Below are positions 7,733 through 56,184 of a stretch of DNA of 64,000 bases, one piece after another. The first letter of the stretch is position 1; each line of letters starts with the position of its first letter. Both the position numbers and the translations under genes were made by a program. Source of the DNA: Watersipora subatra (Eukaryota > Bryozoa > Gymnolaemata > Cheilostomatida > Watersiporidae); the NCBI RefSeq assembly GCF_963576615.1, contig NC_088717.1:31743324-31807323 (forward strand), in the 5' to 3' direction. The notes beneath the pieces are model-generated. The model was given only the letters and a program-made list of their open reading frames with translations, made no database searches and was not told where the DNA came from.

Positions 7733-7749
7733 TAACATCGATTAAAATC

Positions 7750-26084: not shown

Positions 26085-26800
26085 TGCCTAATACGAGACA
26101 GCGTAAGCGACATGTAACATGGTACAACCCACCTTTTAACGCTACGTGCAGATTAACATAGGCAGAAAGTTTATAATCATTATAGATACATGCTTCCCAC
26201 CTACTCATTCGCTGCACAGGGTAATTAATCGACACACTCTAAAATTCAGCTACTGTTGCATGCCTAACATGAAACAGCACATAGACTCACATAACAGACA
26301 CTTGTTGAACAACCAGCAGAGCACGACTACAAGTAGGGCCTGCAATTGTAGAGTAAAGAACATCTGCCAACTGGACAGAAACTGCCTAAATACAAACATA
26401 ATATACCAGGTCATAGTAACTAGAAAAGATGCAGGCACCGAGCGCACCTACACAGGACTATGCACAACCGCCTTCAAATCTAAATATAAAAACTGCAAGG
26501 CCTCATTCATGCACAGTAGCAAACAGTACAGCACAGAACTCCACAAACACGTCTGGAAACTTAAGAATGACAATACAAGCCACAGGATTAAATGGAAAAT
26601 TATGCAGAAAGCTAAACTTTAATCAAATCAAACAAAAAAATGCTATTTGTGCCTTACTGAAAAGTATTACATCATCTGCATTGCAGAAACAGCGACCTTA
26701 AACAAGAGAAGTGAGATGAACAATACATGCCGCCATTCCAAGAAATATCATCTTAGCCGATACGATCCAGGCAGAGATGAAGCTACTAATAACAACAGCA
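26085..26800 (+). pseudogene. Penelope-like element, C-terminal GIY-YIG fragment
   Basis: After a decayed start (a W-Y-N-P-P-F motif), the frame from 26146 reads GRKFI…HRVINRHTLKFSYCCMPNM, then CNCRVKNICQLDRNC, then IIYQVIV…TYTGLC. This is the Cys-rich linker and GIY-YIG endonuclease of Penelope-like retroelements; here the pair is YQV/YTG. The C-terminus, CLTEKYYIICI and NKRSEMNNTCRH, is in another frame from about 26640. At least one frameshift separates the parts, and the reverse transcriptase is missing. It is a 5'-truncated dead copy. Confidence 0.7.
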
Positions 26801-31697: not shown

Positions 31698-32089
31698 TTA
31701 ACATGGACTTCCGAGTCTCTGTGAGAGCGCTTCTACTGCTGCCCGCTCCTTAGATGCACTTCCTGTACACTGTCCTTTTGGCCAATCAATATGTTTCTCA
31801 TTTGAAATTATGTCCTTTATTAGAGCTGGTAGATGCTTCAGCTGTTGGACTGACTCGATGCCGCAAATAATAAGAGTCAGCATGCTCAAGTCCTTGTGCT
31901 TGAAAAGCTCAAATTCAAACCTGCTGGTTGCATCTTCGAGGTAATCTGGTGTGAGAAACAGGATCAATCTGTCAGACTTGGCGATGAGTTTGGCTATGGA
32001 GACTTGGGTCATCAGCCCTGGTGTGGCATTTCGATCTCTTGTTATGATGCTGATATGGCTTGCACTCTCTTGCAGTCTCTTCTGCACAC
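31698..32089 (-). CDS. TLR exon 5: most of the TIR domain
   Basis: Acceptor tttgttatgcag. The two leading bases complete the Cys codon opened at 33690. It reads VQKRLQESASHISIITRDRN then ATPG (box 2), LILFLTPDYLED, RFEFELFKHKD, and HIDWPKGQ near box 3, ending LSQRLGSPC and a stop at 31698. About 130 residues, so TIR plus a short tail of normal size. Confidence 0.88.
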
Positions 32090-32283
32090 CTGCATAACAA
32101 AGAGACACTCAGTAAAGTTAATCTTGTTAATTAAAAGGAATGTAATTAACAATTGTCCACCAGTTGAATTTGCTACTTAAATCTGTAGACTGTCAACCAT
32201 TAACTGTCGCAAATAATAAGGTAGTTGGAATTGGTCCGCTAAAGCAAGACATATATTCAGCTGTTGTTTCAGTTTTAGATCCC

Positions 32284-32332
<49 letters not shown>

Positions 32333-35300
32333 CTTTATCGTTTTTGAGCTTTTAAGAGCTCGTAACCGCGTTTCCACATATTTTGCTTACAACGCAGCAG
32401 AGTAAGACATGGTGAACCTTTTGATGCTAAATAACTAATGTGAATTTTGTTGCAAGTCAACCTTTAAGAAACTAGCATTTGTAGCAATAATAAAATAATA
32501 TATATATCTTATATCTTCTTTATTATTCTTTCTTCCATATATATATATATATATAAATCTCAGTATTTGTTTTGTCGTTTGTTGGTCTGTCATCCGTATG
32601 TCTAGTTGTAGCAATAAAGTTCTATGGATGAAAAAATCACTTTGCCCAGCCATTGAACCCGCCATTGAACTCAAAAACAACAGTTTTGCTGACAGGTGCG
32701 CTATCTACTACCACTCACAACCTACTAGTAGTGCTATGAAATACTATCTACGACCACTCACAACCTACTAGTAGTGCTATCTACTACACCCCTCACAACC
32801 TACTAGTAGTGCTATCTACTACCACTCACAACCTACTAGTAGTGCTATCTACTACCCCTCACAACCTACTAGTAGTGCTATCTACTACCACTCACAACCT
32901 ACTAGTAGTGCTATGAAATAATTAGCACACTTGAATGATTCTAGGCTTCTCGCAGGGTTGAAGATCACGATTGCGTGAGAGATTGTGGCATGTAATGAAT
33001 ATAAGTACAATTATTCCAAGCCATGGCAATCTAGTTGCGTGGCTTAGTGGTAATGCAATTAGCTTAACATCTGTGCATCCACAGAATGTAGGAGTTCAAA
33101 ACATGTGAGGTGCAACCCTTTTTCTTAATGCCCAGACGGAAGGACGAACACAGCTCTTATTATAGTAAAGATTTAGGCTAGATTAAGTTACTCAAACTCA
33201 TTGGGTAAAGAAACTTAACCAATGGCAACTACATTAGCTGCCACTGTTTATAAGCTGTTTTAAATCTTGGATGCACGCGTAGAAAATTTTTTCAATGATC
33301 TATTTTAGCTATGTCTCGAGCTTTCAAATATTTGAATTCTGCATTGATCGGACACACATAGAAATAAACAAACACCTTCATTTAAATGTAAAAATGGTAA
33401 ATGCTGTATATGTTGATTAAAAAAATATATAGATATTACTTTATTGGCAAAACTTTCATGTTAATTAAAATAAATCTCTTGTGCAAAAATTTTGCCATTG
33501 CTTTGCAACACCGAGCATTCACTTCGTATATATGTACAAATGAGTAGATCTAATTTTAAAATGCTGTCAGTTAACTTTTAAATTAGTTAAGCTAAGCGGC
33601 AATTTGTATTGGTAACTAGTAAAATGCAGTACTAATAACCTTGTAGAGGTCTTCTTAACCAAACTGCAGTTGTAGTAGATAATACTTACAGATTATGTCT
33701 TCTAAATGCTTCTTTGAGTAGCTTGCATAAACATTGATATTGACTCTGTTTTGGGTATCTTCCCCTTTTTTGGAGGTGAGCACTTTTCGATGATACCATC
33801 GATAAATGATTGTGTATCGCTTGGTCCATCCTATCAACAGCGTACCTAGAACCGTCAAAACAAAAATACTTGCTATAATTATTGTGAACAAATGAACATT
33901 CTCTTGGTATATAATGTCTTCATTTGGAGGTTGTTGTTGGGTTCTGAGGTATTGCATGATGGTCATTTTGGATTCTGCGCATCTGATTTTATGAGCATCA
34001 GCAATTGCTGAGGAGTTGAGAAGCCAGTCAATATATAGCAATGAGGAGTGATCTGTGCATTGAATGTCGTTCCCTTCAAGGTAAACTAGTAAAGCAGTTT
34101 CCTCATTCTGATCGTTTATCTCTCTTCGAAAGGCCTCCTCAATGTAGGATATCTCATTGTCACGGAGATCAAGGAGGAGAAGATGTCTGTTCGCAGCAAT
34201 AGAGATATTCCAAGCATGTAGGCTGTTTCGTTGTAGATCAAGATGTGTGAGACTAGGCTGGTTAAATAGAATGCTCGAGTTGCTGAAATATTTAATTCCC
34301 CCATCTTGTTGCTCTCCAAGATAAAGTCTCTCTAACAAAGGAGCACCTTTCAGCCTTTCCGCCTTTTCATCATCCCGTAAAAATCGCCCGAGCTTATTTT
34401 TTGAGACTTCAAAGTTTTTGAGTGGAATGTTCTGGAATGTATCGTCTTGCCACCCTTGCAAACCGCACTCTGTGCAAGAGATATTGGTAAGGTATTTGAA
34501 GCCTATCACTTGGTTGCACACGCCGAAGGCAAAGTTGGAATAAGAAAAGTTCAATGTGTCAGCATTATTGGGGTACATGTAAATGCTTGAACAGAAACCA
34601 CTCAAAGTTTCATGCTCACTTTCAGTTACAAAATTGTTATATCCGAGAGCAAAGGTGGTAACATTGGTGAGAAAGTATCGAACATTTTGTAAGTAGCTAG
34701 GGATGTTTGGTAGACCATCAGCTTCCTGAACTAGATAATAAATAGTGTTGTTAATAGCTCGGTGAGGTGTGTAATTCACATTCATATTTTCTAAAGTAGT
34801 GCTTATTAGACTCACAACATCATCCGTAGAATAGACCCCTAGCCATATGTATGTTAAGTCTAACTGACTCATAGCACTCATGGCATTGACTAAAAGTTGG
34901 TAATCCATTATGTCTGATTGATGGTTATGATTCCAATAAAACTCGTCATCCAAGAAAAGAGGGCTGTCTTCATCGCAGTTCAAGATTCTCCTGTCATACC
35001 TCCCACAGGAAAATTCTTTCGTCAGTGCCTGCATTCCTATAAATCTAAGAGCGGGTGGTTGCAAGTTTTTGTTGTAAAACAAAGCTAAGTCTGCGCTGGG
35101 GATAGGTTGTCCTTGTACAATTCGTGCGATGTAAAATGCCGCCCCGTTAAAGTCATTCTGACTAATATCAAGGTAAATTAATTTAGAGCATGTATCTCTT
35201 AGATTCAGATTTCCTGTACTCTTTAATTGGTTAGCTTGAAGGGAGAGCATCTTAAGATCGGTGTTGTTGAGAAACACTAGATCACTATTGGATTCATTGT

Positions 35301-38300
35301 TCCATGGACACACAACACCTTCTCGATTTATATTGTCTAAGATTAAAGTGTGTAACTTGCTTCCAACACCAAGTGTGATCTCCCTTAGAAACTCTTTTAA
35401 GTGATTACATGATAAGTCCAGTCTTTCTAGCGTTTCCCTCATGTTATGTAGAAATGCCCTATCAATTCTTCGTATCCTACAGTTTCTTGCTGATAGACGT
35501 GCTAGTGGTAGAGCTGACAAGGCTGGCTGGTCGTTGTAGGTCATTGATGTTATATTGCATTGGGAACCTCCTAAAACATAACAATCGAGTTTGATGAGTA
35601 TAATACTTATAGATACAGTAGTTGGTAATAGTTATGGGTATAGTACATATAGATAGTTGGTGATAGTTATGGGTATAACACTTGTAGATAGTTGGTGATA
35701 GTTATGGGTATAATTTGAGTCATGGTAACAGCACTAAGAACATTCATAGTGTGTGTTAATATAGTAATAACACAGTGTGTTTTAATATAGTAATAACATA
35801 GTATGTGTTAATATAGTAATAACATAGTGTGTGTTAATATAGTAATAACATAGTGTGTGTTAATATAGTAATAACAACATAGTGTGTGTTAATATAGTAA
35901 TAACATAGTGTGTGTTAATATAGTAATAACAACATAGTGTGTGTTAATATAGTAATAACATAGTGTGTGTTAATATAGTAATAGCATAGTGTGTGTTAAT
36001 ATAGCAATAACATAGTGTGTGTTAATATAGTAATAACATAGTATGTGTTAATATAGTAATAACATAGTATGTGTTAATATAGTAATAACATAGTGTGTGT
36101 TAATATAGTAATAACATAGTGTGTGTTAATATAGTAATAGCATACTGTGTGTTAATATAGCAATAACATAGTGTGTGTTAATATAGTAATAACATAGTGT
36201 GTTTTAATATAGTAATAACATAGTATGTGTTAATATAGTAATAACATAGTGTGTGTTAATATAGTAATAACAACATAGTGTGTGTTAATATAGTAATAAC
36301 ACAGTGTGTTTTAATATAGTAATAACATAGTATGTGTTAATATAGTAATAACATAGTGTGTGTTAATATAGCAATAACATAGTGTGTGTTAATATAGTAA
36401 TAGCATAGTGTGTGTTAATATAGCAATAACATAGTGTGTGTTAATATAGTAATAACATAGTGTGTTTTAATATAGTAATAACATAGTATGTGTTAATATA
36501 GTAATAACATAGTGTGTTTTAATATAGTAATAACATAGTATGTGTTAATATAGTAAAAACATAGTGTCTTTATAGTTGCAATAAGGTATATCTAATCAAC
36601 TAGTGGTCATGACACTCGGGCTGCCATGACACTCGTGCTGCCATGACACTCGGGCTGCAATGACACTCGGGCTGCCATGACACTCGGGCTGCCATGACAC
36701 CCGGGCTGCCATGACACTCAGGCTGCCATGACACTCGTGCTGCCATGAAACTCGTGCTGCCATGACACTTGGGCTACCATGACACTCATGCTGCCATGAC
36801 ACTCGTGCTGCCATGAAACTAGTACCGCCATGACACTTGTGCTGCCATGACACTCGTGCTGCCATGAAACTAGTACTGCCATGACACTCGTGCTGCCATG
36901 ACATTCGGGCTGCCATGACACTCGTGCTGCCATGACACTCGTGCTGCCATGACACTTGGGCTACCATGACACCCGTGCTGCCATGACATTCGGGCTGCCA
37001 TGACATTCGGGCTGCCATGACACTCGGGCTGCCATGACACTCAGGCTGCTATGACACTAGTACTGCCATGACACTGTGCTGCCATGACACTCGGGCTGAC
37101 ATGACACTCCTGCTGCTATGACACTCGTGCTGCCATGACACTTGGGCTACCATGACATTCGGGCTGCCATGACACTCGGGCTGCCATGACACTCGGGCTG
37201 CTATGACATTCATGCTGCCATGACACTCGCGCTGTCATGACACTTGCGCTGCCATGACACTCGCGCTGCCATGACACTCGCGCTGCCATGACACTCGCGC
37301 TGCCATGACACTCGCGCTGCCATGACACTCGCGCTGCCATGACACTCGCGCTGCCATGACACTCGGGCTGCCATGACACTCGTGATGCCATGACACTCGT
37401 GCTGCCATGACACTCGTGCTGCCATGACACTCGTGCTGCCATGACACTCGTGCCACCGGAATAATGATGAATATTCATTTAGGTTTTAACAAAAGTGAAA
37501 AGAAGAAAAGATTAAAGCTAGCAGAGGAAATTACAACTAGGCTTATAACATAGTAGAGAGTACAACTAGATTACAGCAGGTAGAGCGCATCTTTTTAAAG
37601 CCAGCCATACCAACCGCCTTTCTTTTGGCTACGCAACATTTCATTCAACTAAGGCCTCACATATGATACACATGAGCTGCTTACCAAGACTGAGAGTACT
37701 AAGTCTCGAGGCCTCACATATGATACACATGAGCTGCTTACCAAGACTGAGAGTGTTAAGTTTGGAGAGCCCTATCAGTTTCTTGCTGAATGTTGGTGTC
37801 CCAGTTATATATAGCTCCTCTAGTGTCTCATTTAGGACTGCCACGGCAGCGTAGTCAAACTCTTCTGGCTTCTTGTTTTGCTTCATCCTATAAGTATCAA
37901 ATGTCATCACAGGTCATACCAGTTTGTGCCATGTTTATTATTCAATGCTGTTCGCCGTAGAAGAGATCATTAAACTTTTCATGTTTGTCAGCAGTCATTG
38001 AACATCACTGATGTTTAAAAGCTCGATGAACTTATCATCAAAAATCCGATGCATCTCTTTTGAAGTAGTTGGTTATGTTTAAAACAGCTCTAATTGTGTA
38101 TCTTAAGATGTTTAGCATATTAATCTGTCAACAGAATTTGGAAGACTCCAAGAATATAAGTATTGCAAGTTTTTTTTCAATTTTGAAAGTTGAGAGACAA
38201 AATCTGAGTCGCCACGTAGATAACTTTTAACTCTGTAATTTACCTAATTCTAAAAGTTCGTTAGGTAGAGAGAGTTATGGTGCAGAAGTGAAGTTAGAAA

Positions 38301-41300
38301 GCTAGTTGTTGAATTTCAGCAGAGTTTGGTTTTGCTACCTATAGTTTTGAGTTTAGGAAATCTTTCTTTCATTCGTGTAAAATGCAGCAACTAAGCTGAG
38401 ATGTTACTATCTTAGTGTCACAGGTTCATGGCAGGTTCAGGCAGGCTCAAGCAGGTAGTTCTGCAATTCATTGATTGCTCAGTAGCAAATGTTTAGTTTA
38501 TAACTGTTTGTTTTATTTTACATTAAATCGTAACATAACAAGATGATAAAAATAGTAAGGTGCAATGAGGGCTCACATGCGCAGTAGCATGGCTATTCGA
38601 GGCGCAGAGGCCGAGTTAACGGTTGAGATTGTTAATGAAGAAAACATGGTTGTCTAAGCAAAAGAAATCCGAACAAATTTATTCCAGAGAGTACAGCAAG
38701 TACCGCTTGAAAGCAGCCCTAAAACCATCATGACTATCAATTTTCCTTAGCCGAATTGGCAAAGAATTCCAAGCTGATGCCACACAATAGCTAGGCCCTC
38801 CATAGGCAACCCATCTATGGCCACCAGCAGAGGAGGAGAGTGGAAAAGGTGAGAAAAATAAGGATTGATAAAGGTTGTAATGCATTGACAAGTTAGTTTG
38901 AGATTTAAATTGTGTTAAGGCTAAATGATATATTCTTAGTTGGTATAGTTGATGTATAGGCAAAACACGAGATCCTTCAAACAAAAGAGTTGATGGAAAA
39001 CAAGAGTTTTTATGATATACTATTCTAAGCAATCGCTTCTGGATGACCAAAATTTTGTTCAAGTAACCATGTGGAGAATTTTCCCATGATTCCAAGCAAC
39101 AAACTATTTTGCTGTTAATTAGAGCATTATATAAAAGCAAAAGAAGCATTTCTGGTAAAATCAATAAGGCTTGGTAGATAAGTCCCAAGCTTTGTAGCAG
39201 TTGTTTTCTCAATAGTTCTATGTGTTTTGACCAGTTTAGTGTACTATCTATTGTAATGCCTAAAAATTTATGCAATCCGTCATTTGCGTATTTGGTCCAT
39301 TTACGAAAACTTTTTTGTTAATCGAAATTCATTTTGTTGATCTTGAATAACTATGAAATTAGTCTTGTCAACATTCAATGTTAGTTTGTTTTAGTCACAC
39401 CAATTTTTTATCACGTCTAATTCTTGGTTTATTACCGCTACATCTTTATTCAAGTTTTTAGCAGTATAAAATAAAATCATCAGCAAACAAAATAGTTTTA
39501 AATTTATCAGTACCCTTTACAAGATCATTTATATATGACAAAAATAATGTTGGTCCAAGTATGGATTTTTGAGGTAATCCACATTTCATTACCAAAGGTT
39601 GGGATATTTTTTGAGTTATTATAACACTTTGAAAACGATTTGACAAACTATTTTGAATTAATTCTAGACTCGAATGAGAAAAGTTATTTGCTTATTAATG
39701 AAAACAGAGTGATCTCTTGTATCAAAAGCCTTTGAGAAATCAATGACTATACCTAAACAGATAGACTGTTGTTTAAAGCTGCAAGTGTATTGTTTGAAAA
39801 TTCTATCAATACTTCACAAAGTTCCTTTCCTTTCCCTCTGAAATTTAAATTGAGATTCTGCAATAATGTTTTCTTTAATAGTGTAAAGGTTTTGTGCGAC
39901 CTTCACTTTCCTCCACCAGTACAAGACTCGTGCATGAGTACAATACATATATTTCTGCTTAGTTCATCAAGGTGTACAAGAAAGAATCAAGTAATAGGCA
40001 ATGAACAGGCCCAGAACAGCTCTGCTCTTCTACACAAATGTTCGAGCTTATATAGCTAGTAAGCTCCACCTCTGTTCTACTTGGCTAGACCCGGCATGGC
40101 TCTGGGTGGGCTTGGCTGAACTCCGACCTCATTAACATTTGTGACTGAAGACAGCTTGGCTTGGCTTAACTCAGCCCTATGCTCAGCTCCTAGTGGACCA
40201 CATTCCACAACACTCTCCCCCCATTGGTGACCATGGTCTCCAATCTAGACCTTGGGAGAGAGCCAACGGTAGCCACGTGGCAGACCTCCTCTCCTGACAG
40301 GGTTCTGCCCAGGTCCTCCACATCCGTGTCTGAGACAGCTGCCACGGGGCAGCTCATGTCGGCGGCTGAGCCGACACGAGCCGAGGCCTCGTGTCGGCCT
40401 CGGCTCGTGTGACGCCTTCTCCCACTTTCGATCTCCCTAGTCTGCTGCCACACCGACTCGACTGGCTTCGGTGCACATAGGGCTTCCTCAGCTTCTTTCA
40501 AGCTCTTGGTGACCGAAGCCAATAGTTCTGGCAAAGACGCATCACATGCATCATCCAAGTTCTCCAAAAAACTGAGGGCGTCCGGGGTGAGCGAGTGTTC
40601 CAACAGAAAGGCCCTGGTAGCGACCATGAGAACTACCTGGTTGTCCTCTTGTCCCACCTCCGGGTCATTTGCTGGTGACTCCATCGAGTAGCACACTCCG
40701 TTCCCGTACCGATCTGACCTTCTAGTAGTCCGGGCCGGCCTTGGGTTGTGGCGGACAGGTTCTGATGAAGTCTCTGGTGTAGGAGTCGTTCCGGTTTCCT
40801 CCGGGTTTGATTTCGGTTCTCCCGAAACTTCTTTTAGTGAGAACGGATTGGCTTCTACCGAACTTGGAGAGAGTCTTTGGCGTCTCTGGGGTTCTCCTTC
40901 CGCCGGTCCGGCCGAGTTTTCTCCCGGAATTACCTCCTGTCCTTGCTTTTTAGCAGCCTCCAGCAGCAACCTTTCTCAGTTCGGGGGCGGCATTATCGGC
41001 ATAGGGTCCACTCTGGCCTCTTCCTGCCTTTTCTCCGGCCTGCTGTGTCGAGCTCCCTTCATGTTGAGACCCCTCCTTGGCTCCGGAGTGGCTGGGGCCT
41101 GTCCCAACCTCTCTGGGCAAGCATGATGGGGTTTGAGCCTTCCTTCGCTCTGAATAAAAGACTGGCTCTGCCGTTCCACCAGATATGTGTGGTTCCCCCA
41201 GACCTTCAGGACCTGGTATGGTCCTACGAACTTTGCCTGCAGCTTGGGATTTTCTCCCCGTCTCCGGCGTTTGTTCGTGAGCAATACCCAGTCGCCTGGG

Positions 41301-44300
41301 GTGTACAGCGGTGGCTCTTTCCTGTCTTCTTGCCGCACCTCCATCTGTCTTTGCTGTAGTGCCTCGTGCACTGTCTGCAGTCTCCCCTGCACCTCCAGAG
41401 CGTGCTCGTGGGCAGGAAAGAACTCGGTCGGTGGAGGGTGGCTTTCCAGTTGGTCTGGCAACCTCTGCTCCCGTCCCAACATTAGCATGTTGGCCATTTC
41501 TCTAGTCGCGGAGTGGGGGTGCCTCTGTATACCCTCATCAGCTGGGGAGCAGTAGGTCCCACTCATCCTGTCCCCGAGCCAGAAGCAGCACCCTCAAGGA
41601 GTCTCCGAGTCCCCGGTTATTCCGCTCCATGATTTCGTTTGCCTGTGGATGAAACGGAGTCGTGTAGCTCTTTCCCATGTTCCAGAGTTGGCACAGTTCG
41701 GCCATCATTTGGCTCTCAAACTGCACCCCCTGGTTCGTGTGGATCTGCTCAGGCAATCCCAGGTAGCAGAAGACCCGCTCATCCAGTGCATTGACAACCA
41801 CCGGGGCCATGGCGTCAGGTACCAGGCGTCCTGCCACCAGATGAAGTGGTTGGTGAGAACCAGCACCCACTTGTTCCCCCTTGGTGTGACAGGAAATGGC
41901 CCGACCAGAACCACGGCCACCTTCTGCCAGGGTCGTCCTGCATAAAGCCTCCTTTTTCCTCTGGCCGCCTTTGTCCCTCTATGCTTTGCGGCCTGGCACA
42001 CCTCGCAACTCTTGATGAGCCGTCTGACTGTGGAAGTCAGTCCGGGCTAGTACCGCGTCAGTTGGAGGCGACCTATCGTCCTTCCCACCCCAGAGTGAGC
42101 CAGGGCGTGTGTTTGCCACACCATGGTGTCCTGCATAGCTGAGGGGTAAATGGCGCATCATCTAGCGTGGCCCTGCGGGTCCACATGTGCTTCCAGCACG
42201 CCGTCCTGTCGTTTGCGCAGAGAGCCTCGCATGCGATGCAGAATGTCCAGCTCTCTGCTCTCGACCTCCAGGTGTTCTGCTGGCACCTCCTCTCTTGTGA
42301 CAATGGCACGGTACATGATGGCCACTGGTCCCTGTCCGGTAGCCTGTGTCCTTGCCAGTTCACCCTTTGGTCCTGTCACTCCTGGTGGGGCTGATAGCCC
42401 CTCGGGGGAACCTCCGACACCCAGGTTCAATCTTGCCACTGTTGGGGCGACAGTCCCGTGCGGGTTGCCCGCCGGCCCCCCAGGGTTTGCGACGTTGCCC
42501 AGGGTCGGTCCCGCTCTATCGAGGGCAGGAGTCCCATCCAGGCAACTGGTCGGTACACACGCGGCCAACGGCCCTTGTTCCCCTGCCAACTCCTTCCGTG
42601 AAGGGCCCTCATCCCTCTGTTCAATGCTTGCGCATTGCCGGCAGTCCTCGCAGGTTTGCCTGCTCAATCCACCTGCATTCCCGTGGCGAGTCCCTGACCG
42701 GTGCTCCAGGATGTAGCGGAACTCCGCCAAGATCTCAAGCCACCGAGCTACTTGGTTCGAAGGTTCTCTCCTCCAGCATAACCACCGGAGTGATGCGTGG
42801 TCCGTCCATAGGAGGAACTTCTGGCCATACAGATATGGCCAAAAGTATACGGCCAAGATACCGCCTTCACTACCGCAAGTAGCTCCCGTCGAGTGAAGCG
42901 GTAATTGCGTTCCGAGGGGGTGAGAGTCTTGCTGTAGTAGGCAAAGACCCTTTCGCAGCCCTCCTGTACTTGGGACAGCACGGCCCCACTCCACATTCGC
43001 TGGTGTCTGTGTCCAAGATGCACTGCCTCCGAGGAACTGGATAGCCCAAGATCGGGGCGGTGCTGATGCTCTCCTTCAGCATGTTGAAAGCGGCCTGTTC
43101 TTCCTCAGTCCATCTCCAGGGCTCTCCCTTTGCAGTCAGTCGGTGCAAGGGGTGCGCTAGCGTGGCAAACGCCGGGATATATTGCCGGTGGTAGCCGACC
43201 GTCCCGAACAATCCTTGGAGTTCCCTCACTCTGTGCGGACTCGGCCACTTTGCGACTGCCTCCACCTTGTCGGAGTCTGTAGAGACTTTGTCCTGGCTTA
43301 CTATATGACCCAGGTAGCAGACTTGGGTTTGCAATAGCTCGCACTTGGAGGGCTTCAGCTTCAGTTTGGCTTTGTGGAGTCCAGCCGATGTAGATGCGTA
43401 TCGAAATCCGGGGCAATGACGATAATATCATCCAGATATAGCAGCAGCGTTCTCTAGTGGAGGCCATGTAGAACGCGTTCCACGAGTCTTTGGAAGGTGG
43501 CGGGGGCGGACGTCTGTCCGATAGGCAACACTTTCCATTTCCACAGTCCGGACCGTGTCGAGAAAGACGACTTTTCCTGCGCCTCTGCATCCAGGGGTAC
43601 CTGCCAATACCCGCTCACCAGATCGAGCGTGCTAAAATAGTGAATGCCGGACACTGAGTCCAGGCTGTCATCGATCCTGGGTAGCGGGTAGGCGTTCTGC
43701 TCCGTTACGGCGTTGAGACGCCGGTAGTCAATACAGAAGCACCATTTCCCATCCTTCTTCCGGACCAAAACCACGGGGGAGCTCCAAGCTCCTCCGGCTG
43801 TCTTGATGAGCCCTCGTTTGAGCAGATCCTGGACCTGCCTCTCGACCTCTGCCTCCATCTTCGGTTCGAGTCTGTGAGGGAGTTGTCGGATTGGCCGAGT
43901 GCCCTCTTTAAGTGGAACAGAATGTTCCACCTTCGAGGTCCTTACCACCACGTAGTTGTCACCCGTACTGAACACTGTGGCATACCGACGCAGCAGGGAT
44001 GCCAACCTTGACATTTGTCACATGTCCTCACAGTTTGGCCGAGCCGCCTGGAACAATTCCTCAAGGTGAGCCGGCACTCCATTGATTGAAGTCGGACCGG
44101 CGTCACACAACAAGGGATTGTCCTCCTCAACCTGTGGGGTCTCCACTCCCGTGTAAGTGCCGATAGTGGCTCCAGACTGAAAAATCAAAGGTCAATCCGT
44201 AGTGTTCATGCAGTGGGTGATGACCTGTCCCTTGGGTCCCGGCTGGTTCAGGCTACTGGCTACTAGAGGTCCGTCGGGTCCCTCGATTAGTTCCATGGGG

Positions 44301-47300
44301 CAATAGTTCCACGTGGTGATGCGACAGTGTATCGCCATCTCTGTCCGGGCGAGAACCACTACCCCCCTTATCACCTGTACTTTGCTCTGTAGCAGCCGCC
44401 CATGCCGGTCCGTGCAGACTAGCTGTCTGCCATCCACTTGGACCACCGGTTGCTCAAACTCGAGAGCGCATTGAGGGGCAAGGAAGAACAGCATTCCGAG
44501 TATGGCATCTTCGCTCAGTTGGCTAACTACGAAGACTTCCTCTGTCTTCACATCCCTCAAGCGCAGTGGTTTCCAACCTGGGGGGAAATCCCCCAGGGAG
44601 AAATTGTGTAAAGGTTTACAAAACCAGTATAAAGGTTTTGCGTGACCTTCACTTTCCTCCACTAGTACAAGACTCGTGCATGAGTACAATACATATATTT
44701 CTGCTTAGTTCATCAAGGTGTACAAGAAAGAATCAAGTAACAGGCAATGAACAAGCCCAGAAAAGCTCTGCTCTTCTACACAAATGTTCGAGCTTATATA
44801 GCTAGTGAGCTCCGCCTCCATTCTACTTGGCTAGACCCGGCATGGCTCTTGTTCTACTTGGCTGAACTCCGACCTCATTAACATGCCTGACTGAAGACAG
44901 CTTGGCTTGGCTTAACTCAGCCCTATGCTCAGCTCCTAGTGGACCACATTCCACAACAATAGTGTAGTTATAGATTTGTTGGTTAATAAGATGCTCAAAG
45001 ATTTTGAAAAAAACTGGCAGAATATAAATAGGTTTATAGTTACTAGATAAGAGCTTATTACCTTGGTTTTTAAATATGGGTAAATCGTTAACACATTTCC
45101 TTTTATTGTAGGAAAACACATTGCTTTATGCTCATGTTGAATAAGTATGCTAAAGGTTTGATAACTCAGGTGAACATGCTTTCACCAAATTCGCAGATTT
45201 CAACTATGCCTTCTGCTTTGTGTTCATTTACATTTGCAATAACTCTCTGAACTTCTAGAAAATTAAAATCTGTAGATGTATTCATCCCTAAAGTTTGATG
45301 CTTTATATCTATATTAGAAAAAGCTTGCGCAAGCCTAGGTTTTATTTCTGTAAAATAGGTGTTAAATTCTGTAGCTATTTGTTTGTCATCGGCTAATTCC
45401 TTGGATTTAGAGTCTAAAAGCTTAGTAATTTGTTGAGCTTTACCTTGGTTTCATCCACAAGCATTATTTATGAAATTCCAAAGCTTTCTCGTGTCATTAA
45501 TTTTTGATATTTCATTACAATAATAATAATCAGCTTTTGCTTTTTTAATAAGGAATAAAACTTTATTTCTAACTTTTATGTAGTTCTTTTTTAAATTACG
45601 ACTGAAGGGGTAGGCTCTGTACTCGCCAAACAATCTGTCTTTTTTGCGTATCTCCAAAATAAGCTTTTTGGCATCCAAAAAGTTTTTAAAGCTTTTGGGC
45701 TTACAACAAGTTTTTTCCTTTATAGGAGCAATTTGGTCAAATATTTCTTTAGTCATGTTTAGAAAGTTGTTATGCGCCAAATCTACACTTTCTATCTGGT
45801 AAGCCGAGGTGTCCCAGTCAACCTCATTCAAAAGATGTTTTACTTTGTCCAAAGAAAAATTGTCAATATGCTGTGAATCATGTGTTCAGCAGGATTCACA
45901 GCATATTGACAACAAATTGTACTTACTTGGTGCCCAGTGATTATCTTCTATATGCTGCGCAATCTGAGCAACCCCTCAATCATAGAGTATGGTGTTTGCT
46001 TAGCAGAGGCTGTGTATAGGTTTTAAGCCCTCAATCATAGAGTATGGTGTTTGCTTAGCAGAGGCTGTGTATAGGTTTTAAGCCCTCAATCATAGAGTAT
46101 GGTGTTTGCTTTGCAGAGGCTGTGTATAGGTTTTAAGCCCTCAATCATAGAGTATGGTGTTTGCTTAGCAGAGGCTGTGTATAGGTTTTAAGCCCTCAAT
46201 CATAGAGTATGGTGTTTGCTTTGCAGAGGCTGTGTATAGGTTTTAAGCCCTCAATCATAGAGTATGGTGTTTGCTTAGCATAGGCTGTGTATAGGTTTTA
46301 AGCCCTCAATCATAGAGTATGGTGTTTGCTTAGCAGAGGCTGTGTATAGGTTTTAAGCCCTCAATCATAGAGTATGGTGTTTGCTTAGCATAGGCTGTGT
46401 ATAGGTTTTAAGCCCTCAATCATAGAGTATGGTGTTTGCTTAGTAGAGGCTGTGTATAGGTTTTAAGCCCTCAACCATAGAGTATGGTGTTTGCTTAGCA
46501 TAGGCTGTGTATAGGTTTTAAGCCCTCAATCATAGAGTATGGTGTTTACTTAGTAGAGGCTGTGTATAGGTTTTAAGCCCTCAATCATAGAGTATGGTGT
46601 TTGCTTAGCAGAGGCTGTGTATAGGTTTTAAGCCCTCAATCATAGAGTATGGTGTTTGCTTAGCAGAGGCTGTGTATAGATTTTAAGCCCTCAATCATAG
46701 AGTATGGTGTTTGCTTAGCAGAGGCTGTGTGGGTTTTAAGAACATTTTTACGCAAACAGTTGCTCTATGATCTTGGCTGGAGTCTGATTCTATTGACAAA
46801 GAAATCTCTGCAACTGGAGATATGCATAGTTGCGAAGAGCAAATTATGGTTGGATGTCATTCCTTGTCAGCACCGAAAGCCTTTTTGGAATTAAACCCAA
46901 CCTGTTGTTCGCGGGGTCAGGCTATCTAGGCCACTAGCTGCCACGGTGTTCAGCGGGCCAGGCTATCTAGGCCACTAGCTGACACGGTGTTCAGCCGGCC
47001 AGGCTATCTAGGCCAATACTAGCTGCCACGGTGTTCAGCGGGTCAGGCTATCTAGGCCACTAGCTGCCACGGTGTTCATCGGGTCAGGCTATCTAGGCCA
47101 CTAGCTGCCACGGTGTTCAGCGGGTCAGGCTATCTAGGCCACTAGCTGCCACGGTGTTCAGCGGGTCAGGCTATCTAGGCCACTAGCTGCCACAGTGTTC
47201 AGCGGGCAAGACAATTGAACCACTTCTTCTCTATGGGAGAAGCAGCTGAAGTCAAAAGTTTCAAACCGACCAAATGTTTATCGGCCAATTTAATGTAAGC

Positions 47301-50300
47301 GAATGCGATTTTCAATTTATTGTTTTCCTTATTTATTCGCTATAATTTAATAGCACAGAATTAAATTGGGAAACAAGTAATTGTCTTCCTTTCTCATAAT
47401 GGAAAAGCTTTTATTTGAGTTTGTTTGGATGATTTATCGGAGCAAATGCGATTTTCAATTTATATAATAAAGAAAGCTTTTGCAAGGTACAGTTTGCCTA
47501 CCATGTGGTCATCCGTGCAGGCTATCCAGTTTTAGTTCAGCCACTAATACGGAATTAGGTACCTTCGTCATTGGACTCATCATGTAAACACTTAGGTACA
47601 GTAATACTACAGTAGTACATGTAGGTAGTAGTTTTGACAATTTCTTTCAGGTGTATTAAGGTAGGTAGGCATTTGAAGCTGGTTTAATTTTGATAATTTT
47701 CTTAGCGGATATATGTAATCAAGAGGGGTGTCCATAACTTCTTTTAATTAATATAGTAAAAACATAGTGTGTTAATATAATAATAACATAGTATGTGTTA
47801 ATATAATAATAACATAGTGTGTGTTAATATAATAATAACATAGTATGTGTTAATATAATAATAACATAGTGTGTGTTAATATAATAATAACAACATAGTG
47901 TGTGTTAATATAGCAATAACATAGTATGTGTTAATATAATAATAACATAGTGTGTGTTAATATAATAATAACATAGTATGTGTTAATATAATAATAACAT
48001 AGTGTGTGTTAATATAATAATAACAACATAGTGTGTGTTAATATAGCAATAACATAGCATGTGTTAATATAGTAATAACATAGTGTGTGTTAATATAGCA
48101 ATAACATAGTGTGTGTTAATATATCAATAACATAGTGTGTGTTAATATAGTAATAACATAGTGCGTGTTAATATAGTAATAGCATAGTGTGTGTTAATAT
48201 AATAATAACAACATAGTGTGTGCTAATATAGTAATAACATAGTGCGTGTTAATATAATAATAACATAGTGTGTGTTAATATAGCAATAACATAGTGTGTG
48301 TTAATATAGTAATAACATAGTGCGTGTTAATATAGTAATAACATAGTGTGTGTTAATATTATAATAACAACATAGTGTGTGTTAATATAGTAATAACATA
48401 GTATGTGTTAATATAGTAATAACATAGTGTGTGTTAATATATAATAACATAGTGTGTGTTAATATAGTAATAACATAGTGTGTGTTAATACAGTAATAAC
48501 ATAGTGCGTGTTAATATGGTAATAACATAGTGTGTGTTAATATAATAATAACATAGTGTGTGTTAATATAGTAATAACATAGTGCGTGTTAATATAGTAA
48601 TAACATAGTGTGTGTTAATACAGTAATAACATAGTATGCGTTAATATATTAATAACATAGTGTGTGTTTATATAGTCATAACATAGTGTGCGTGCGTGTG
48701 CTTGTGCTATGCGTGGATCCGTATAGCAAACATAAGTCACTAAGCTTGCCAAATCACTGCTAATTTAGTTGTTATTATAGGTATGACTTGCTGTGCTACC
48801 AGGCGTTGCCCAGGTATTAAAAATCAGCTTATAAACAATGAGAGATAATGGGAGTTGCCTGCCATTTGCTATTAGCCAGTGGCACATTGCCAATGGATAA
48901 TATAAGTAAGCTTACTAATAGGAGCTACTGCTCCGCCATCACTTTGCGTCGTGACCAAAAGTGGTAGCCTATTTGCTCCCATATAGCGCTATATATTACC
49001 TAGCGAATCTCTCAAGCTTCGTAAGGTGTCGGACTTGCGAACGGGAAGTTCCGAGAACAAATCTTCTGCTTTACGAATTCTTTTTTCCAAGAATTTAATA
49101 GCTATAGCTAGAATGACACACATACCAACTTTGAGAAATACGTACATGTACATAGATTGATAGATTGACAAGGAAAGCTTTGACAATCGATCAAGACTAA
49201 ATACAACCGTAAAAGAATCAGTTTGCTATATCTGACTTACTTCAGAGTCCTGAGCTTAGACAGTCCATGGAATGAATCTGTCCTAACAGTTCTTTCAGAC
49301 AAGGTAATGTTATTGAAGGAGATGTCTAAGTGTAGGAGTTGCATGAGAGAGGAGAAAATTCCGGAAGGTATCTCTGTGATATCGTTATTTGAGAGGTCAA
49401 GGGTGTGAATCTCATCAAATTTGTGCAGTTCTGGTATTTCTCGTAGATGATTGCTGTTGAGCTTGAGGACACGAAATAGTTTCAATTTTTCTAGATCTGT
49501 CTGTGATAAGTCAAATGTCTCAAGTTTGCTTCCGGAACAATCCAATACTGGGGAGCTTGTACAGTAGCAGCCTTTGGCCACACATGGCCACCGAGACATT
49601 TGTACGGCAACAGCCTAGAAAATAAGGAGCAAAAGAGAATTAATTCCTACTTGTCTGTGCAGAAGCTAACCTAACTGAGACAGAGATTACTTCCTGTCTG
49701 TACAAAAGCTATCCTAACTGGGATAGTGATTACTTCCTGTCTGTACAAAAGCTAACCTAACTGGGATAGTGATTACTTCCTGTCTGTACAAAGTCTAACC
49801 TAACTGGGATAGTAATTACTTCCTGTCTGTACAAAAGCTAACCTAACTGAGACAGAGATTACTTCCTGTCTGTACAAAAGCTATCCTAACTGGGATAGTG
49901 ATTACTTCCTGTCTGTACAAAAGCTAACCTAACTGGGATAGTGATTACTTCCTGTCTGTACAAAGTCTAACCCAACTGGGATAGTAATTACTTCCTGTCT
50001 GTACAAAAGCTAATATAACTGGGATAGAGATTACTTCTTGTCTGCAAAAAGCCAACCTAACTAGAATAGTGCTTACTTCCTGTCTGTACAAAAGCTAACC
50101 TAACTGAGACAGAGATTACTTCCTGTCTGTACAAAAGCTATCCTAACTGGGATAGTGATTACTTCCTGTCTGTACAAAAGCTAACCTAACTGGGATAGTG
50201 ATTACTTCCTGTCTGTACAAAGTCTAACCTAACTGGGATAGTAATTACTTCCTGTCTGTACAAAAGCTAATATAACTGGGATAGAGATTACTTCTTGTCT

Positions 50301-53056
50301 GCAAAAAGCCAACCTAACTAGAATAGTGCTTACTTCCTGTCTGTACAAAAGCCAACATAACTGGGATAGAGATATCTAAAACTGAGTACTAATGAATCAG
50401 AGACTTCTTTGCCTGACTAGTTTCTCTTTACTCAAATAAACCTGGTTTCGATTGCTTGCAGGAAACCTTAAAACATATCATGGTTAAAATTTGATGGTCA
50501 TCATATCTGCATTAAATTAGCGTTTAAAACATGATATTTTTAAATCAGAGTTTTGGTTAGTAAAATTACAACAAAAGAATGCGCAAATTAGTGAGATATG
50601 GATAATAATTGAATAACAATTTTCTACAGTTGGTAGTAATGGATCTGACAGAACAAAGGTAATTCAAATAAAGATTCATAAGGCAAAGCGATTTTAACAA
50701 ACTGGCAAGTTTACAAAAACCTTTCATGTCTAATCTTTAAGATCTATTTTAATTCTAGTGATGAGAGAGTCTGTCGGTCTCCTATAGATTAACAGAATAA
50801 GGGAGGTGCTAAAGCTTGGTTCTCACCCCACTGTAAGAAGCGGTGGTAGTGCAACCAGCGGCTGCTGGTGGTTGCCGAGAACCAGCAGGCCAGCGGCATT
50901 TTTCCTGCTGGCAGTGGCCGCCAGCAAAGCTCAGCGAGTTGAACTTTTCTATGATCTCATTGTAGGTTGCAGGATATCGCCAATAGTGAAAATCTAAAGC
51001 CTGGTTCCCATATCGATTGCGAGACTCCGGCGGTAGCTTGCGCAGCAAAACGCTTGAGACACTAGGCTCGGCGGCATCTGTTCACATATAAGCTGCATCG
51101 CTAATCATAATCGTGGAATCAAATAAAATGTTTGCTCGCCATGTTGTTTCTGTAATGGTGACCTTCACCTGTACAGTGCATTTCGGGAAGGTTTTGCCTG
51201 CGGCCTTCTGCGAAATTTGAACAGCGCTAAACTATTGCGATGCCGCCGGCAACTACCGGCGGTCCTCGGCGGTACCCGGTGGGTAGGTTCCCATTTCACC
51301 GCCAATAGCCTGTGGTACTGTTGCCGGTGCTTTGTGATGTATATGAGAACCAGGCTTCACAAGTGACCCCTGACAAGTGACTAAAGAAGAATTTGACTTT
51401 CCAGATAAATTTTGCTTTAATCAATTATTCTACTTAATAATATTAGTGTAAAGTTCTTTTATAGTTTTAAATTTTACTTATCTTATTTATGTTTAATCAT
51501 ATAATTACTTTTGCACATAACCAACTTTTGTATAATCAAGTTTTGGATAACCAACTACTTATACTCATATATTTATATCTATATATATATATTTCTCAAA
51601 GTATGTGTGTACACATTCCGGCTATAGATCTTCAAATCTTGGAATAAAGATTCCGTACCGAAAAAGATGCGATCTCTTTGCCTGCCCTTCACCAGACTGA
51701 CATGCTATCTACTAGACCACAGAAATTGAATTGCTACCTTACCATTATAGGTCAGTATATGAGAGCAAATATCCAACAGATTTGCTTACGACACGGTCAT
51801 AGCATAACGTCACGAGAAGCTGTTTGCTCACATTATTAGAAGTACTGGCTGATAGCGCGCAGGCTAATAGCGAGCAACTCTCACTACTTCTCATTGTTTA
51901 TAAGACAAAACACTTTTCTCATGATATGTAGTTTGAAAATTATAATGGCAAATGTTGTTATATGTTAAATACAAATCAATTTTCTGTCCAAAGACTTTTC
52001 TATTACCCGGGCAACGCCAGGTAGCACAGCTAGTATATAGACATATATATTTAGATATGTACAATTTTTATAACTCCAAGTTTTTGTACTAACAATATTA
52101 ATTCTACTTGATGTTTATGTCAGCTCAAATTAGCAACAAATACCATAACTTGCACAAAAATTTTTTAAAACTCATACTTTTGATTACAACAAAATCAAAT
52201 ATCAAAGATGCTAAAAGCCATACTTTAATCAACAAATTAGGCAGTTTTTTGCGCAAGCATTTGTTTTGATGTAGGAGAGGAGTTTATTAAACATCAATGT
52301 TCTATAGACAGAGAACTAACAACTACCATTTACTACATAAGAGTTCCAACTTCAATCATGCAAAATACAGTAGACACAATGGAGATCAATTGTGTTAAAC
52401 CTTTCTACATCGCTTTAAAGATTCAAACCTTTTGCACCCACTGTTTCACAAAAAAACATTCCTTAAAACTTATTAGCGAACCTGTTGAGTGTGTCAGACA
52501 ACCTGTTGAGTGAGTCAGACAACCCGCCGAGTGCTGCTAGACAACCTGTTGAGTGTTGTTTTGTTTGTCAGACAACCTGTTGAGTGTGTCAGACAACCTG
52601 TTGAGTGGGTCAGACAACCCGCCGAGTGCTGCTAGACAACCTGTTGAGTGTTGTTTTGTTTGTCAGACAACCTGTTGAGTGTGTCAGACAACCTGTTGAG
52701 TGGGTCAGACAACCCGCCGAGTGCTGCTAGACAACCTGTTGAGTGTTGTTTTGTTTGTCAGACAACCTGTTGAGTATGTCAGACAACCGTTGAGTGCTGC
52801 TAGACAACCTGTTGAGTGTTGTTTGTCAGACAACCTGTTGAGTGGGTCAGACAACCTGTTGAGTGGGTCAGATCATGTGCTGATTGTGTCTGGCGACCAG
52901 CTCTTTTGTTCCAATAAAATAACCATAGAATATAGGTAGGCCTAAGTAATTAGCAAAGAGGCGTAATAGCAGCATAGTTGAACTTACCTGAAAAGAGATC
53001 AAAGTGAAAAATATTAGAGTCATTTCATAACAATGAAGCTGTGCCATGATTTCCAT
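31698..53056 (-). CDS. Toll-like receptor, five exons, about 953 aa
   Basis: Spliced model: 53056-52988, 49614-49241, 37887-37742, 35570-33690, 32089-31698. Every junction is GT-AG and in phase (0, 2, 1, 1), and the sum (2862 nt) is divisible by three. Layout: signal peptide (1 to about 26), LRR N-cap with Cys34/39/41/49, leucine-rich repeats to about 700, C-cap Cys701/727, transmembrane segment 757-778, cytoplasmic TIR domain from about 808. This is a cell-surface or endosomal pattern-recognition receptor that signals through TIR adaptors. A single membrane-proximal cysteine cluster suggests the single-cluster (sccTLR) class. TIR box 1 is weak (INVYASYS), box 2 keeps RD…PG, and box 3 has DWP. 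The gene covers 21 kb because introns 1-3 hold minisatellites and retroelements. Expression cannot be judged from sequence. Confidence 0.88.
32285..32330. repeat. (TA)n microsatellite
   Basis: About 22 TA dinucleotides in TLR intron 4, directly beside a foldback-element end. Confidence 0.95.
32335..32466 (+). mobile_element. Solo terminal repeat of the foldback DNA element
   Basis: gagcttttaagagctcgtaa … gttgcaagtcaacctttaa matches the terminal inverted repeat of copies A and B. The other end is absent, and a TA microsatellite sits at the internal boundary. Confidence 0.75.
32690..32925. repeat. About 34-36-bp minisatellite
   Basis: ccactcacaacctactagta plus gtgctatctacta, six copies. Confidence 0.9.
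33025..33525 (+). mobile_element. Decayed Helitron-like element with tRNA-like segment
   Basis: gcgtggcttagtggtaatgc (A-box-like) and, 45 bp on, aggagttcaaaac (B-box-like), followed by text matching other Helitron copies (aagctgttttaaatcttgga) and a ruined 3' end near 33495-33525 (gcaacaccgagcattcactt). It lies in TLR intron 4. Confidence 0.45.
33690..35570 (-). CDS. TLR exon 4: main LRR ectodomain, C-cap, transmembrane, TIR start
   Basis: Acceptor ttatgttttag, then GSQCNITSM (an N-glycosylation-like Asn). LRR motifs include LERLDLSCNHLKEF, LKMLSLQANQLKST, LIYLDISQNDF, LTHLDLQRNSLHAWNIS and LLLLDLRDNEISYIEEAF. Then the C-cap (GNDIQCTDHSSLLYIDWLLN … IRCAES), the hydrophobic helix LFTIIIASIFVLTVLGTLLI, a basic stop-transfer, and INVYASYSKKHLEDI. 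Donor aatct|gtaagt at 33690. There are no stops in 626 codons, so the ectodomain is under coding constraint. Confidence 0.9.
35625..35705. repeat. Short tandem repeat in TLR intron 3
   Basis: tagatagttggtgatagtta plus tgggtataa, two to three copies. Confidence 0.7.
35745..36568. repeat. 26-bp minisatellite, about 31 copies (TLR intron 3)
   Basis: Unit aatatagtaataacatagtg plus tgtgtt. Some copies carry an extra aac or gcaata in place of gtaata. The same family forms a second array at 47750-48690 in intron 2. Confidence 0.95.
36603..37455. repeat. 17-bp minisatellite, about 50 copies (TLR intron 3)
   Basis: Unit gccatgacactcgtgct with variants cgggct, cgcgct and cttggg. The unit has no stop on the minus strand, so it is open in all three minus frames and gives a 17-residue periodic polypeptide (MAARVSWQHECHGSTSV-like). 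I treat it as non-coding intron. Confidence 0.93.
37660..37773. repeat. 57-bp tandem duplication spanning the exon 3 donor
   Basis: ggcctcacatatgatacaca plus tgagctgcttaccaagactgagagt occurs twice, offset by exactly 57 bp, with few differences. Each copy carries the last coding bases of the exon and a full GTAAGC donor. Confidence 0.92.
37742..37887 (-). CDS. TLR exon 3: LRR exon with duplicated splice donor
   Basis: Acceptor gatacttatag; one base completes Lys. It reads MKQNKKPEEFDYAAVAVLNE then TLEELYITGTPTF, LIGLSKLNTLSLG. Donor cttg|gtaagc at 37742. A second, identical donor lies 57 bp further at 37685; its use would add 19 residues (KQLMCIICEASRLSTLSLG) in frame. Confidence 0.82.
37990..38650. 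other. Intron sequence, no gene recognised
   Basis: Unique AT-rich sequence in TLR intron 2 between exon 3 and the LINE. A short aggttcaggcaggctc repetition at 38425-38455 is the only structure seen. Confidence 0.4.
38660..39887 (-). pseudogene. LINE reverse transcriptase, 3' half (disrupted)
   Basis: Read right to left: GIVIDFSKAFDT (RT motif A, about 39750-39715), then CGLPQKSILGPTLFLSYIND and LFADDFILYC (39570-39460; both catalytic Asp kept), then KFLGITIDSTLNWSKHIELL and a thumb/C-terminal region to a stop at 38679. Frames change several times. An AATAAA on the minus strand lies just past the stop. The 5' half continues at 44963-45861; the Gypsy element separates them. Confidence 0.75.
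39892..40212 (-). repeat. Gypsy 3' LTR
   Basis: Left copy of the pair. Text such as gactcgtgcatgagtacaat and gttcgagcttatatagctag is shared with 44628-44958. It differs from the other LTR by scattered substitutions and a few short indels, so the insertion is not recent. Confidence 0.88.
40190..40969 (-). pseudogene. Gypsy 3' accessory open frame
   Basis: A 260-codon open frame downstream of integrase, running into the LTR (…LETMVTNGGRVLWNVVH). Rich in Pro, Glu and Ser with no domain that I recognise. It overlaps the polypurine tract. Gypsy elements of this kind often carry an uncharacterised C-terminal extension. Confidence 0.45.
40976..42142 (-). pseudogene. Gypsy integrase, several frames
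   Basis: Right to left: zinc region (HALAHSGVG … CEVCQAAK), core with VLVLTNHF where a catalytic Asp is expected, then EQIHTNQGVQFES where the second Asp is expected, and NEIMERNN with the Glu kept, then the chromodomain-free C-terminus GDWVLLTNKRRR and AKFVGPYQVLKVW (GPY/F motif). Two of the three DDE residues are Asn, and frame changes occur near 41870 and 41560. It cannot integrate. Confidence 0.75.
42158..43334 (-). pseudogene. Gypsy RT connection and RNase H
   Basis: 43334-42990 reads VCYLGHIVSQDKVSTDSDKV and LQGLFGTVGYHRQYIPAFAT (RT thumb). Then ILDTDTSECGVG, YYSKTLTPSERNYRFTRREL and LLWTDHASLRWLC (RNase H; Asp, Glu and Asp visible, in three different frames). The frame to 42158 continues as the spacer before integrase. 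Confidence 0.7.
43345..44014 (-). pseudogene. Gypsy reverse transcriptase core
   Basis: KVEHSVPLKEGTRPIRQLPH, then SSPVVLVRKKDGKWCFCIDY and RRLNAV, TLDLVSGYWQV, and after an in-frame TAG at 43456-43454 (a Trp codon in relatives) LLLYLDDIIVIA with the YLDD active site. A frame change follows near 43375 before KPSKCELLQ. Confidence 0.75.
44192..44580 (-). pseudogene. Gypsy protease-like remnant
   Basis: SEDAILGMLFFLAPQCALEF and LVCTDRHGRLLQSKVQ are the C-terminal flap of a retropepsin (family form D-A-I-L-G-M-D-F-L). The N-terminal D-T/S-G active-site loop is gone, consistent with the deletion that removed gag. Confidence 0.6.
44628..44958 (-). repeat. Gypsy 5' LTR
   Basis: Right copy of the LTR pair (331 bp). 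The sequence just inside it reads TGGTTTTGTAAACC on the minus strand, the position of a primer-binding site; I cannot assign a tRNA. Confidence 0.85.
44963..45861 (-). pseudogene. LINE reverse transcriptase, 5' half (disrupted)
   Basis: 45852-45451 reads LNEVDWDTSAYQIESVDLAH, FLDAKKLILEIRKKDRLFGE and LFLIKKAKADYYYC: the spacer between endonuclease and RT. After a break, 45121-44963 reads LPIFKNQGNKLLSSNYKPIY and ILPVFFKIFEHLIN (start of the RT fingers). Reading would then pass directly to the fragment left of 39888, showing that the Gypsy element interrupted it. Confidence 0.72.
45862..45910. repeat. 18-bp inverted repeat (hairpin)
   Basis: Arms gtcaatatgctgtgaatc (45862-45879) and gattcacagcatattgac (45893-45910) are perfect complements around a 13-base loop. 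It marks the 5' edge of the LINE fragment. Confidence 0.85.
45972..46737. repeat. 55-bp minisatellite, about 14 copies (TLR intron 2)
   Basis: Unit ccctcaatcatagagtatgg, tgtttgcttagcagaggctg, tgtataggttttaag. Copies are over 95% alike by eye. Confidence 0.95.
46905..47210. repeat. About 41-bp minisatellite, 7 copies (TLR intron 2)
   Basis: gtcaggctatctaggccact then agctgccacggtgttcagcgg. Confidence 0.93.
47750..48690. repeat. 26-bp minisatellite, second array (TLR intron 2)
   Basis: Unit aatataataataacatagtg plus tgtgtt, about 36 copies. Same family as 35745-36568, separated from it by exon 3 and the retroelements. Subtypes gtaata, ataata and gcaata are interspersed. Confidence 0.95.
48787..48985 (-). 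mobile_element. Helitron 3' fragment (inverted)
   Basis: On the minus strand it ends with hairpin cctgggcaacgcctgg, then tagcacagCAAG|T (CTAG in other copies). The preceding 150 bp (aagcttactaataggagcta region) match 25870-25980. No 5' end was found to the right. Confidence 0.6.
49241..49614 (-). CDS. TLR exon 2: LRR N-cap and first repeats
   Basis: Acceptor ccttattttctag, then AVAVQMSRWPCVAKGCYCTS with the N-cap cysteines, and LRRs LKLFRVLKLNSNHLREIPEL, IHTLDLSNNDITEIPSGIF, LLHLDISFNNITLSE. It ends LRTL(K), donor ctgaa|gtaagt, phase 2, matching exon 3. The Ala-Val-Ala at its start fits a signal-peptidase site. Confidence 0.88.
49640..50370. repeat. 43-bp minisatellite, about 17 copies (TLR intron 1)
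   Basis: Unit ctaacctaactgggatagtg then attacttcctgtctgtacaaaag. A block of several units is itself repeated (higher-order pattern near 49670 and 50090). Confidence 0.93.
50997..51357. mobile_element. Small DNA transposon/MITE (361 bp)
   Basis: Terminal inverted repeats AAGCCTGGTTCCCATAT and ATATGAGAACCAGGCTT (16/17). The body is GC-rich (cggcggtcctcggcggtacc). A related end, AAGCTTGGTTCTCA, lies at 50812, so a second, partial copy adjoins. Target duplication not clear; superfamily not assigned (Harbinger/ISL2EU-type termini are possible). Confidence 0.65.
51594..52033 (+). mobile_element. Short non-autonomous Helitron (440 bp)
   Basis: Starts TCTCAAAGTATGTG, ends hairpin cccgggcaacgccaggt, then agcacagCTAG|T. 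No terminal inverted repeats and no target duplication, as expected. The reverse strand of 51670-51725 carries a tRNA-like tggtctagtagatagcatgt block. It lies in TLR intron 1. Confidence 0.78.
52480..52880. repeat. Compound minisatellite (TLR intron 1)
   Basis: Core gtcagacaacctgttgagtg with interspersed acccgccgagtgctgctaga and ttgttttgttt segments. A higher-order unit of about 120 bp is visible. Confidence 0.9.
52988..53056 (-). CDS. TLR exon 1: signal peptide
   Basis: ATG at 53056 (a second Met three codons on), reading MEIMAQLHCYEMTLIFFTLI then SFQ, donor tttcag|gtaagt, phase 0. The hydrophobic core followed by AVAVQ from exon 2 makes a standard signal peptide. No stop or ATG conflict upstream was checked beyond the first codons, so the start is probable rather than proven. 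Confidence 0.72.
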
Positions 53057-56180: not shown

Positions 56181-56184
56181 TTTT

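Follow-up and report, generated by a model that had tools for sequence, protein, structure and literature searches.

Toll-like receptors (TLRs) have a working definition, set out in PMC8609888, as proteins with a TIR domain, a transmembrane segment (TM) and at least one LRR. The same source names LRRNT as common in P-types. The type criteria applied here, which also follow PMC8609888, are one membrane-adjacent LRRCT for V-type (single cysteine cluster, scc) and at least two LRRCTs for P-type (mcc). In the Pacific oyster, 83 TLR genes are reported, nine of them with frameshifts (PMC4346834). The literature found on TLR exon structure gave little information about where introns lie. In an earthworm, one mccTLR is described as having no introns (PMC6591376), and an account of Ciona in which gene naming is inconsistent contrasts a single-exon TLR with others for which three exons are presumed (PMC12816324).

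Our analysis of a window of 64,000 nucleotides from Watersipora subatra produced what is very probably an intact TLR gene, judging from its sequence, with five exons over 21.4 kb and, tentatively, the single-cysteine-cluster (V-type) layout. By themselves, the gene and the mobile elements would point to an animal, probably an invertebrate. Annotation might overlook this gene model or break it up. The parts of the gene, in gene order, are as follows.

52988..53056, minus strand: exon 1, 69 nt, with its ATG in the context AACCATGG
49241..49614, minus strand: exon 2, 374 nt, with an LRRNT-like cysteine cluster and the first LRRs
37742..37887, minus strand: exon 3 as ended by its distal donor, 146 nt, with 48 full LRR codons
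37685..37741, minus strand: optional exon-3 extension, 57 nt to a second, identical donor, with 19 in-frame residues and no stop
33690..35570, minus strand: exon 4, 1881 nt, with most of the LRR ectodomain, a reduced LRRCT-like stretch, the TM and the start of the TIR
33829..33891, minus strand: transmembrane segment, about residues 757-777, LFTIIIASIFVLTVLGTLLIG, where the 19-residue hydropathy reaches its maximum for the whole protein (2.64)
31698..32089, minus strand: exon 5, 392 nt including the stop, with the remaining TIR

The coding sequence rebuilt from the minus strand is 2862 nt long, encodes 953 aa, ends in TAA and joins the five exons in one frame. This agrees with the first-pass annotation, which had proposed five exons with phase-compatible GT-AG junctions and a single 2862-nt frame. 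The junction phases are 0, 2, 1 and 1 in exon order, and all four GT-AG junctions are compatible. A TGA is found in frame 27 nt 5' of the exon-1 start codon. Introns 1 to 4 measure 3373, 11,353, 2171 and 1600 bp, and the second of these bears out the earlier description of exons as much as 11 kb apart.

The donors read GTAAGT, GTAAGT, GTAAGC and GTAAGT in exon order, and the acceptors of exons 2 to 5 end in CTAG, ATAG, TTAG and GCAG. The sequence GTAAGY occurs at 13 sites in the 21,359 bases of the gene strand, and five of these 13 are possible donors of the gene, if both exon-3 donors are counted. The acceptors differ in pyrimidine-tract score: the share of the strand's AGs that score equally well or better is 0.1% for exon 2, 13% for exons 4 and 5, and 42% for exon 3. 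The frame of exon 4 extends for 658 codons from stop to stop. By comparison, the longest forward frames of 300 random sequences of equal length, generated by a second-order Markov model trained on the 21,359-base stretch itself, have a mean of 96 and a maximum of 191 codons. Given 953 codons that are free of stops and frameshifts, and GT-AG at each junction, it seems very improbable that this locus is a TLR copy that has lost its expression and is decaying among repeats, even though its surroundings are full of repeats, its LRRCT is reduced and a sense-strand LTR element in intron 2 might end transcripts early.

A tblastn search of the window with the protein (E up to 1) returned its own five exons only, with this gene as the window's sole TLR. 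Rfam (gathering threshold) and ARAGORN gave no matches over the window, and when viral contigs were scanned with exon 4, two pattern matches but no confirmed relative came up.

Three of the four junctions fall within a domain that is completed by joining, and the join of exons 1 and 2 yields a signal-peptide-like sequence. The exon-1 product, MEIMAQLHCYEMTLIFFTLISFQ, is hydrophobic by hydropathy and is followed in exon 2 by AVA/VQ, where an A-V-A cleavage site was placed by eye. Cysteines C34, C39, C41 and C49, also in exon 2, form the cluster that was labeled LRRNT-like by eye. When first exons of 30-150 nt were enumerated with an ATG between 56000 and 49640 and phase 0, 24 candidates were obtained, five of them with a GTRAG donor. 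Four candidates tie for the highest hydropathy (2.28); all four start in exon 1, and three of them use the exon-1 donor.

A direct join of exons 2 and 4 is out of phase, and skipping of exon 3 breaks the frame. Joining exon 3 to its neighbors completes an LRR core on each side, LRTLKMKQN with exon 2 and LNTLSLGGS with exon 4. Enumeration of phase-compatible, stop-free bridging exons of 30-400 nt between exons 2 and 4 gave 769 candidates. LRR cores form at both joins in two of these, both of them exon 3, although this junction-motif test is weak because marginal rates of 25 and 31 in 769 already predict about one such candidate. The test was also devised after exon 3 had been seen; therefore, candidates were scored with an LRR profile that leaves exon 3 out and draws on eleven repeats taken from exons 2 and 4.

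With this profile, all gains are small: the 146-nt form of exon 3 gains 1.9 bits (rank 11) and a longer, 203-nt form gains 2.0 bits (rank 10), while the best candidate gains 3.4 bits; the ten candidates ahead of the 146-nt form thus include its own longer form. Codon log-odds, with exons 2, 4 and 5 as the training set, place the 146-nt form fourth (score 6.2) and the 203-nt form ninth (4.4). The three candidates ahead of the 146-nt form lie in intron 2, within its remnants of LINE-like and gypsy-type coding sequence. Among the 24 bridging candidates with a GTRAG donor, the two donor forms of exon 3 take ranks 1 and 2 by summed score.

Exon 3 alone has no match in Pfam. This fact, coupled with the weak acceptor of exon 3, might suggest that the true gene combines exons 2, 4 and 5 with some other bridging exon, or with another first exon, since the support for exon 1 consists of hydropathy, start context and splice sites. 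However, exon 3 has the best summed score of the 24 candidates with a GTRAG donor, and exons 2 and 4 require a bridge, so an error in exon 1 or exon 3 is judged improbable. The exon set proposed in the first pass stands as the best among the enumerated candidates with a GTRAG donor, but a second, equally good donor of exon 3 had been overlooked.

This second donor stems from a tandem repeat at 37652-37761 (period 57, 96% matches), in which the last part of exon 3 is duplicated together with the first part of intron 3. Because the 57-bp duplication spans the donor, exon 3 has two identical donors, at 37742 and 37685, that both read CTCAGTCTTG followed across the splice point by GTAAGCAGCTC, and the choice between them is ambiguous. 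If the intron-proximal donor at 37685 were used mainly or alternatively, the same gene would encode a variant of the main model with 972 aa and an extra 19-residue LRR-like unit. The extension is in frame and free of stops, the donors are identical and our home-made LRR profile rates the longer form as good (2.0 versus 1.9). However, the extension lowers the regional Pfam scores (LRR_4 from 30.0 to 26.2 bits, LRR_8 from 28.9 to 25.4 bits) as well as the codon score (from 6.2 to 4.4), and 19 residues are short for an LRR, for which a length of 22-26 residues is given in PMC8609888. Use of the proximal donor is thus a substantial possibility, but not the favored one.

It is also conceivable, although rather doubtful, that the tandem duplication, by doubling the 5' splice site of an ectodomain exon in frame, lets this one TLR gene give rise to two receptors, one of which carries an LRR insert of 19 residues. 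A change in the copy number of the minisatellite-like unit would then alter the solenoid between individuals.

Profile searches of the spliced product, a check suggested in the first pass, recover both LRR and TIR domains. For the whole protein, Pfam LRR_8 matches with 2.3e-17 (62.9 bits against a cut-off of 27), and the same profile matches exon 2 (49240-49614; 8.9e-11) and exon 4 (1.2e-08) singly. The TIR_2 match of the whole protein (2.7e-5, 25.1 bits) is under the curated value of 28, whereas residues 805-953 alone exceed it (1.7e-6, 28.9 bits). Exon 5 alone gives 9.8e-05 and 23.3 bits, below the cut-off; joining the end of exon 4 to exon 5 lifts the score from 23.3 to 28.9 bits, with a match that crosses the junction. 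PF01582 is below its own cut-off both for the whole protein and for the TIR alone. By eye, exon 5 carries an RDRNATPG loop and an HIDWPKG end as TIR motifs.

Windows of 19 residues with a hydropathy of at least 1.6 start at residues 753-762 and otherwise only at the N-terminal positions 9 and 12. AlphaFold models made without an alignment were too poor for use (mean pLDDT 40.5 for exon 5 and 36.8 for exon 4), apart from a helix of moderate confidence in exon 4 that coincides with the TM segment (block means 84, 86 and 72). The LRR-TM-TIR order from which a TLR had originally been proposed is reproduced, with LRR and TIR from Pfam and one strong TM from hydropathy.

An LRRCT usually has four cysteines. 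The reduced LRRCT-like stretch next to the membrane (residues 701-727, by eye) has two, C701 and C727. Because this is the single LRRCT-like stretch, the protein is tentatively closest to V-type (single cysteine cluster). No second LRRCT-like pattern was seen by eye in the cysteine list, and Pfam gave no LRRCT or LRRNT match in the whole protein up to E=1. The lack of any Pfam LRRCT match is weak as a point against P-type, since Pfam missed the membrane-proximal stretch as well. The assignment is tentative because the LRRCT is both reduced and unrecognized by Pfam, and because LRRNT is common in P-types.

The greatest distance within the gene, intron 2, contains several repeats.

47748..48690, no strand assigned: 26-bp minisatellite, of the same family as one at 35745-36567 in intron 3
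44959..45885, minus strand: probable 5' part of a LINE-like reverse transcriptase frame, by eye
39882..44958, minus strand: Ty3/gypsy-type LTR element, 5,077 bp, in sense with the gene, with broken frames
38679..39317, minus strand: probable 3' part of the same LINE-like element, by eye

The LTRs, at about 39880-40212 and 44626-44958, are 94% identical over 333 bp, and the element is flanked by a 4-bp duplication, CTAT. Pfam detects RVT_1 (6.5e-16) and an RNase H-like domain (2.4e-07) in it, together with a weak integrase zinc-binding match (0.00047) that is below its cut-off. The flanking LINE-like frames gave no Pfam match at 0.01, the 5' part being searched over 45451-45885. Restoring the empty site yields 27 codons in one open frame, IFEHLINQQIYNYTIKENIIAESQFKF, although at this short length two of the three frames are open. 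As read by eye, the LTR element was probably inserted into an older LINE-type reverse transcriptase frame.

Beyond the LTR element, tandem arrays account for another 2,057 bp of intron 2, and 4,217 bp remain, in which a further exon is possible. The LTR insertion and the tandem arrays therefore explain most of the length of the intron, which is long because it holds an LTR element within a LINE-like frame as well as minisatellites. The intron presumably grew through such nesting of mobile elements and through the minisatellites.

Other repeats were observed in the window. The minisatellites at 35745-36567 (intron 3) and 47748-48690 (intron 2) flank exon 3 and are ~90% alike. A 68-bp minisatellite with 37 copies (98% matches) occupies 56182-58700, upstream of the TLR gene. 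An inverted pair at 14288-15172 and 16658-17541 (886 bp, 93% identical) has end fragments that recur at ~32328-32474, in intron 4. A LINE at 6745-10479 on the plus strand has long open frames, one with a PHD finger (PHD, 1.1e-07) and one of 953 codons with endonuclease and reverse transcriptase (RVT_1, 2.2e-36). Finally, a plus-strand frame at 26140-26622 resembles a Penelope-type remnant by eye and has no Pfam match at 0.01.

The anatomy of the gene is read from the DNA itself, and what is known of the family would predict how its product works. The five exons would be spliced from a pre-mRNA over 21.4 kb, and the protein would enter the secretory pathway. By analogy with other TLRs, it would cross the membrane once and expose the LRR solenoid, which may bind a ligand or partner. 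Dimerization would then lead the TIR to recruit MyD88-like adaptors, with NF-kappaB-type signaling as the presumed outcome.

Comparison with proteins of known structure brings in LRR receptors and the IL-1 receptor family besides TLRs. The whole protein has 148 PDB matches; among the best 60, the top places go to designed LRR proteins and LGR4, with TLR3 further down. LGR4, LGR5 and LRRC15 align with the exon-2 LRRs and their continuation, LGR4 more strongly than TLR3 within those 60 matches; these three proteins are not known to carry a TIR domain. Within the same 60 matches, the LRR part matches TLR3 with 1.1e-09 at best, and its alignments to TLR3 include stretches within residues 91-338 that run across both exon-3 junctions.

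The IL-1 receptor family (IL1RAP, IL18RAP and SIGIRR) shares the TIR domain. The best PDB match of the TIR is that of IL1RAP (1.9e-05), with an alignment through the exon 4/5 junction, and further TIR matches are TLR1 (0.0014), TLR6 (0.0053), IL18RAP (0.013) and SIGIRR (0.065). However, the ectodomain here consists of LRRs, and Pfam detects no immunoglobulin domain up to E=1.

The protein as predicted fits the working definition of a TLR in PMC8609888. Like V-type/scc TLRs, it appears to have an LRR ectodomain, one TM, a C-terminal TIR and, by eye, a membrane-adjacent LRRCT-like stretch. Unlike them, it has an LRRNT-like cysteine cluster, a two-cysteine LRRCT and a divergent TIR (RDRNATPG loop by eye), and its gene has four introns in the coding region, one of them inside the TIR. 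Apart from the doubled splice site, its one unusual feature, the gene is an unremarkable TLR. It adds another member to a family that has grown large in certain invertebrates; the duplicated donor offers a concrete case for asking whether donor copying diversifies an immune receptor.
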